The translations under genes and the position numbers were made by a program. Positions 267-8,080 of a stretch of DNA of 64,000 bases are shown here, one piece after another. The stretch's first letter is position 1, and the number at the start of each line of letters is the position of its first letter. The notes below the pieces were generated by a model. That model was not told where the DNA came from and did no database searches. It was given only the letters and a program-made list of their open reading frames with translations. The DNA is taken from the NCBI GenBank assembly GCA_930971385.1, contig CAKNGB010000002.1, forward strand, positions 1 to 64,000. Direction: 5' to 3'. The stretch comes from an uncultured Clostridia bacterium (GTDB taxonomy: Bacteria > Bacillota > Clostridia > Christensenellales > UBA1242).

Positions 267-407
267 GCGGGCGAAAGTCCATGCAGGGCATGGGCGCGCG
301 CAAGCGCGCTGTCTTTTTGCAGTTAGGGCAATGTTTTTTTGTTGAAAAAGTGCGTGATGTTAAGTTTTATTTGCTTTTTCACACTGCAAAAAGACACTTT
401 CGCCCGC
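267..407. ncRNA. Candidate structured RNA / palindromic element (four-way junction), orientation undetermined
   Basis: GCGGGCGAAAGT (267-278) pairs with ACTTTCGCCCGC (396-407); CCATGC-AGG-GCATGG hairpin (279-293); GCGCGC-GCAA-GCGCGC hairpin (294-309); GTCTTTTTGCAG (311-322) pairs with CTGCAAAAAGAC (384-395). Helices abut directly. GC-rich in an AT-rich intergenic region. Confidence 0.55.
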
Positions 408-487: not shown

Positions 488-1024
488 ATGAAAGATATAA
501 ACGCGCTTGTCAGCAGGTTGCAGAAGGGCGAAACGGAAGCGTTTGATAAGATATATAAGTTGACGAACAAGTCAATTTATTTTGTCGCCTACTCAATTTT
601 GAAAAATAAGGAAGACAGCGAAGAAATCGTGCAAGAAGTTTACATAAAATTCTATAAAAATCTTCCTAAAATTGACACCTCGCGCAATGTTTATAATCTT
701 CTTTACACGATTGCCAAAAACTTATCACTCAACAAACTTAAAACAAACAAAAGGTCGGTCACACTGGAATTTGCCGAAAATGTGACGGAGGAGAAGAATG
801 AAACTTTCCACAAAGCATCTTATGACAACATTTTAAACCTTGCCTTATCCACGCTTAAGCAAAATGAATTTGAGGTTTTGTCGCTGTGTTTAATTGAAGG
901 GTATAAGCGAAAAGAGGTGGCAAAAATGTTGGATAAATCGGTGGCGACAGTCACATGGCAATATAACAACGCACTTAAAAAACTTAAATCTAAATTAGAA
1001 GGAGGGGGATATGAAAAAAATTGA
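488..1024 (+). CDS. RNA polymerase sigma factor, ECF/sigma-70 family
   Basis: 178 aa with sigma region 2 (FDKIYKLTNKSIYFVAYSILKNKEDSEEIVQEVYIKFYKNL) and region 4-like HTH (KRKEVAKMLDKSVATVTWQYNNALKKLK); RBS aaaggag. Confidence 0.85.
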   Translation: MKDINALVSRLQKGETEAFDKIYKLTNKSIYFVAYSILKNKEDSEEIVQEVYIKFYKNLPKIDTSRNVYNLLYTIAKNLSLNKLKTNKRSVTLEFAENVTEEKNETFHKASYDNILNLALSTLKQNEFEVLSLCLIEGYKRKEVAKMLDKSVATVTWQYNNALKKLKSKLEGGGYEKN

Positions 1025-7983: not shown

Positions 7984-8012
7984 AAAAGAGGAGACTCCTC
8001 TTTTTTCTGCTT
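7984..8012. terminator. Bidirectional terminator between convergent genes
   Basis: AAAAAAGAGGAGACTCCTCTTTTTT. Confidence 0.7.
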
Positions 8013-8080
8013 TCTTTATATTCCATATTTTGTTTTTAAGTTTGCATACTACACAACATCTTGAGGTGGTATGCAATGCG

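Follow-up and report, generated by a model that had tools for sequence, protein, structure and literature searches.

Near the start of the window, by which we mean the whole 64,000-nucleotide stretch of DNA that was analysed from an uncultured Clostridia bacterium, lies a perfect four-way junction (4WJ) that probably belongs, as a single copy, to a class of small, non-autonomous DNA elements defined by their shape and not by their sequence. In these elements an outer stem, P1, closes three abutting hairpins whose A+T content rises from the first to the last, an arrangement predicted to form a 4WJ when one strand folds. The stems are kept by paired changes and the P4 loop is replaced; elements are found inverted in place, and they are absent from syntenic sites of related genomes.

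The junction in the window

The window copy is built of a P1 of 12 bp, two abutting hairpins and a P4 of 12-13 bp (Table 1). The helices P1, P2, P3 (with its GCAA loop) and P4 that had been proposed in a sequence-only reading of this DNA are all present, and P4, taken there as 311-322/384-395, lengthens to 13 bp as 311-323/383-395. The inner stem that was also proposed (340-350/374-383) exists in the window copy and is missing from the folds of the other family copies, which makes it copy-specific. RNAfold gives -77.7 kcal/mol for positions 250-420, against -52.3 +/- 3.6 for shuffled sequences (z = -7.0). A generic scanner that takes no account of sequence and seeks three abutting hairpins closed by one stem picks up the element at once, and scanners of this type found no 4WJ in 264 kb, nor in about 1.39 Mb, of Markov-simulated sequence. 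A search of Rfam with the window and 12 further loci found no known family at any element.

Table 1. Parts of the four-way junction element and its neighbouring gene in the window
Feature	Positions	Strand	Basis
Whole 4WJ element, copy of the R1 family	267..407	+	helices, RNAfold, covariance-model match
P1 5' arm GCGGGCGAAAGT; purine-rich, GAAAG beside the junction	267..278	+	
P2 hairpin CCATGC-AGG-GCATGG	279..293	+	paired in all 22 copies
P3 hairpin GCGCGC-GCAA-GCGCGC	294..309	+	two pairs with compensatory changes
T310, single nucleotide between P3 and P4	310	+	
P4 5' arm GTCTTTTTGCAGT	311..323	+	
P4 loop, variable; often unrelated between orthologous copies	324..382	+	orthologue comparison, folds
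P4 3' arm ACTGCAAAAAGAC	383..395	+	
P1 3' arm ACTTTCGCCCGC	396..407	+	
ECF-type sigma factor gene; neighbour outside the element, context only	488..1024	+	label in the sequence-only reading and look of the sequence

The R1 family

A DNA search of the genome from which the window comes (G000, 1.05 Mb) found element sequence in at least nine places, and a covariance model of the family (R1), on whose genome searches the genome-wide counts rest, recognises 11 copies there; the multiple genomic copies expected of a mobile element are thus found. Among 111 congeners the model finds copies in one only, the sister species G086, which again has 11. G086 is apparently GenBank CALVWC01 (isolate BRZ_NS__bin95 of an "uncultured Clostridia bacterium"), to judge by identical positions and model scores. 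One member of each set of 11 is divergent (L044/L060). All 11 copies of the two genomes occupy orthologous places, and therefore no recent jump has been caught within this pair. The stems of orthologous copies are nearly unchanged and their P4 loops are often unrelated to each other (e.g. L036/L053, L038/L058 and L042/L055).

In the alignment of the 22 copies, which was fitted to the R1 model and so leans towards structure, 98.0% of stem cells are paired, both sides have changed in 15 of the 34 pairs, and double-change cells number 62, as compared with 13.2 +/- 2.8 after shuffling and no more than 13 with the partner shifted along. A MAFFT alignment of nine sequences gives the same picture (12 double-change cells versus 3.7). 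In several copies P3 carries a GNRA loop.

BLASTn over the congeners and the order returned the copies of the window's own genome only, together with two matches of 21-36 nt in other families that look like chance, and the returns for DNA queries L048 and L049 were mostly A/T-rich and chance-like. Weak model matches in two genomes of other families (L109 and L110) fold differently and were rejected as members.

A wider class in the genus

The weak R1 matches in congeners are perfect 4WJs with other helix sequences. In 1.02 Mb from 48 congeners, part of it picked near earlier matches, the scanner found 18 four-way junctions, one three-way and no five-way junctions, as compared with none, three and none, respectively, in two simulations totalling 2.04 Mb. 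Forty stretches chosen without prior matches held five 4WJs, in four genomes, versus one three-way junction. The distribution is patchy, with many copies in the genomes of some species and none found in others: G084 has eight 4WJ elements in 100 kb, most species have none in 20 kb, and none was seen in 341 kb sampled from other families of the order.

The elements are intergenic and measure about 80-150 bp, with a P1 mostly of 10-15 bp whose 5' arm is G+C-rich and then reads GAAAG. When they are oriented by the A+T content of the first versus the last hairpin, a procedure from which the P1 arm was left out, A+T rises through P2, P3 and P4 (0.36, 0.57 and 0.81), the middle hairpin being intermediate, and the P1 5' arm proves purine-rich in 28 of 31 elements outside R1, with GAA or AAAG in 19 of them and the complement in none. 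The gradient and the purine-rich arm with its motif thus give the class both a polarity and a common P1 motif.

Some individual cases deserve to be recorded. One 4WJ element of congener G028 (L207:17511-17600) sits within an open frame of 1403 residues. Two near-identical elements of G084 (L179:7679-7766 and L180:8611-8707) have an outer stem that seems to run past P1 (GGCTGTGGCTTTAGC / GCTAAAGCTCACAGCC), hinting at longer units. In CACXDI01 (Ruminococcus sp. RUG11149), where the search bait was the P2 motif and not the four-way form, a 78-bp 4WJ repeat with other arms is present in several copies (L061, L065, L066, L075, L076, L081 and L084), mostly near contig ends and mostly directly after TTGAC-like and TATAAT promoter-like sequence.

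Absence from syntenic sites and inversion in place

Comparison of congeners shows that the elements can be absent from, or reversed within, otherwise conserved surroundings. Genomes G074 and G082 have an element 3' of rplS, and G071, G020 and G092 keep the flanks without it. The copy in G074 is 86% like that in G082 only when one of them is reversed, with both flanks aligning forward; at a second locus of the same two genomes the element is 82% alike in reverse between forward-aligning flanks, and it is again absent from G071, G020 and G092. Inversion in place is therefore seen at both of the loci that could be compared. Several changes in P1 between G074 and G082 are paired and match between the arms. 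Likewise, the genes on either side of one R1 copy in the window's genome (L036) are adjacent in about ten congeners, with a spacer of 34-142 nt and no 4WJ; the spacer in G074 is longer and unrelated. Such empty sites may be losses instead of ancestral states, and the insertion point at them cannot be fixed, as the A/T-rich flanks align poorly. A conserved function 3' of rplS was considered and set aside, since the subtypes present there in our genome and in G074/G082 are unrelated and no element stands at any of 28 further rplS loci examined. We also note an insertion of roughly 154 bp adjoining a family copy (L037:1796-1949) that the sister lacks; the 3' half of this insertion folds into a 4WJ that is looser and rich in A/T, and has partial copies elsewhere.

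Inversion and arm-matching P1 changes are known behaviours of stem-loop DNA, and small inversions at such DNA are reported from plastid genomes (PMC12928735 and PMC6824564). The elements might thus be products of mutation, with template switching both making and repairing nested palindromes, so that paired changes arise without selection. We consider this highly unlikely, because it leaves unexplained why the hairpins should number three and not two or four, why the elements share a polarity and a P1 motif, and how copies of one family came to be dispersed.

Gene context

The window element lies 80 nt upstream of the ECF sigma gene, as would suit the leader that had been suggested for the ECF operon, or an attenuator. 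Such a role is now scarcely credible: the element at the sister's ECF gene is reversed in orientation and of a different subtype, and the ten remaining copies in the window's genome adjoin unrelated genes, in both orientations. The sister's element lies directly after rpsI. In our genome rpsI is at the end of another contig (C7), which stops 52 bp past the gene, and this contig and the window contig probably join here. Positions 1-266 of the window, to the left of the element, have no match in the element loci of the sister. The arrangement suggests that our genome has an additional repeat separating rpsI from the element. Another hairpin repeat, CTTGCATAnTACACAA..TTGTGGTGGTATGCAAG, is also dispersed; 464 kb contain about ten copies of it, and it occurs near several of the four-way elements (window 8011-8076; L021, L025, L026, L030, L031 and L032).

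Across the class, elements show no orientation bias with respect to neighbouring genes. By longest-ORF gene calls, which are uncurated, they are enriched directly after stop codons, with 14 of 35 no more than 12 nt away from one where 5.4 would be expected, and divergent gene pairs flank only 2 of 35. Both counts would suit an element acting at transcript 3' ends in the manner of REP/BIME hairpins: placed just behind stop codons, its fold would, as RNA, end transcription or protect mRNA against 3' exonucleases, and would work from either strand as the complement folds too. On the plus strand of the window copy, P3 together with the TGTCTTTTT behind it has a terminator-like score. Nevertheless, the flank table shows no consistent T-tract beyond P1 on either side, ordinary terminator-like hairpins already stand beside several copies, and presence is patchy, most congeners having no element at the same genes. 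As the whole explanation of the elements we therefore think this role unlikely; they possibly also act on transcript 3' ends in addition to being DNA elements.

Pairing as DNA or as RNA

The covariation is strong, and compensatory base-pair changes, which alone do not tell RNA from DNA, are what had been asked of a new noncoding RNA; the GNRA loops of P3 in several copies would also suit a structured RNA under compensatory evolution. The remainder of the evidence speaks against it. Wobble pairs make up 29 of 1997 pairs (1.5%) in the elements, a figure biased by the scanner's penalty on wobbles, versus 83 of 1154 (7.2%) in 54 tRNAs; among 747 stem cells of the model alignment, where no such penalty applies, six G.U pairs are about equal to four A.C mismatches. 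Neighbouring genes run in both orientations, elements are inverted in place, no Rfam family matches, and promoter-like matches near the window copy are weak only. We regard a noncoding RNA as improbable. The scarcity of wobbles, the lack of orientation bias and the inversions together favour pairing as DNA, although the same scarcity and lack of bias would be expected if RNA were made from either of the strands, and pairing at the DNA level is not proven.

Comparison with known elements

Of the three possibilities that had been raised from the sequence, a miniature palindromic mobile element fits best with the multiple copies, the covariation, the presence and absence at syntenic sites and the inversion in place. 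The target duplications that were to accompany it are not seen: direct repeats of at least 4 bp flank four elements, as compared with 2.4 in shuffles. Neither the model matches nor the matches to the P1 core in 464 kb included an autonomous copy carrying a coding insert. A transposase survey directed at the Y1 type found PF01797 in 13 of 112 congeners, with no more than partial matches in our genome and its sister and none in the element-rich G084; mobilisation by an IS200/IS605 (Y1) system was rejected, the presence of Y1 being uncorrelated with that of the elements.

Bacterial MITEs are short, non-autonomous, intergenic and bounded by terminal inverted repeats, which the P1 arms (12 bp in the window copy) resemble; the elements described here differ in lacking a target duplication, in that no parent transposon was found and in conserving shape instead of sequence. 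The attC sites of integrons, which are recognised as a folded single strand, likewise combine variable sequence with conserved architecture. An attC site, however, is one imperfect hairpin with extrahelical bases that adjoins cassette genes, whereas, compared by architecture alone, our elements have three hairpins within a closing stem.

REP, BIME and REPIN palindromes, mobilised by RAYT tyrosine transposases, are similarly short, intergenic, palindromic, dispersed, species-specific and patchy (PMC3733652). REPs are palindromes of 20-40 bp, most of them tagged with GTAG or CGTC, whereas the elements here have three hairpins closed by a fourth stem and helix sequences that differ between elements; no such tag was seen by eye in their flank table. 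The double-hairpin elements of organelles (Paquin et al. 2000, as cited in PMC5910586) and the LIMP palindromic repeats (PMC4524435) are also compact hairpin-only DNA for which there is evidence that it moves or rearranges and which is suspected of forming cruciforms, but they are described as two hairpins or one long palindrome and not as a closed 4WJ with conserved polarity. A search of the open-access literature brought up no bacterial repeat with four such arms, although this does not prove that none has been described.

A possible mechanism and its implications

For a class of DNA elements defined by structure, a course of events can be envisaged in which a single strand, on the lagging strand or in an extruded cruciform, would fold in the cell, the P1 arms pairing as DNA. 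Recombination or template switching at the stem might then flip the element and correct its arms, and its non-autonomous spread might be the work of a putative enzyme reading the folded junction together with P1. The location near stop codons could represent a target preference, or could be tolerated or selected since the fold would block 3' exonucleases in either orientation. We put forward more tentatively the possibility that these elements constitute a class of mobile or invertible bacterial DNA not described before, whose identity is the 4WJ shape and whose sequence turns over freely; in that case, retention of the shape, of the arm order and of the GAAAG at the junction would imply that some enzyme recognises an immobile fold resembling a Holliday junction.

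Elements that are alike in shape only escape sequence-based repeat finders. If an enzyme does read a folded 4WJ in order to move or flip DNA, this would represent a new mode of recognition and would provide a natural reagent for junction-specific recombination, and the formation of cruciforms in living bacteria would become testable through the comparison of genomes.
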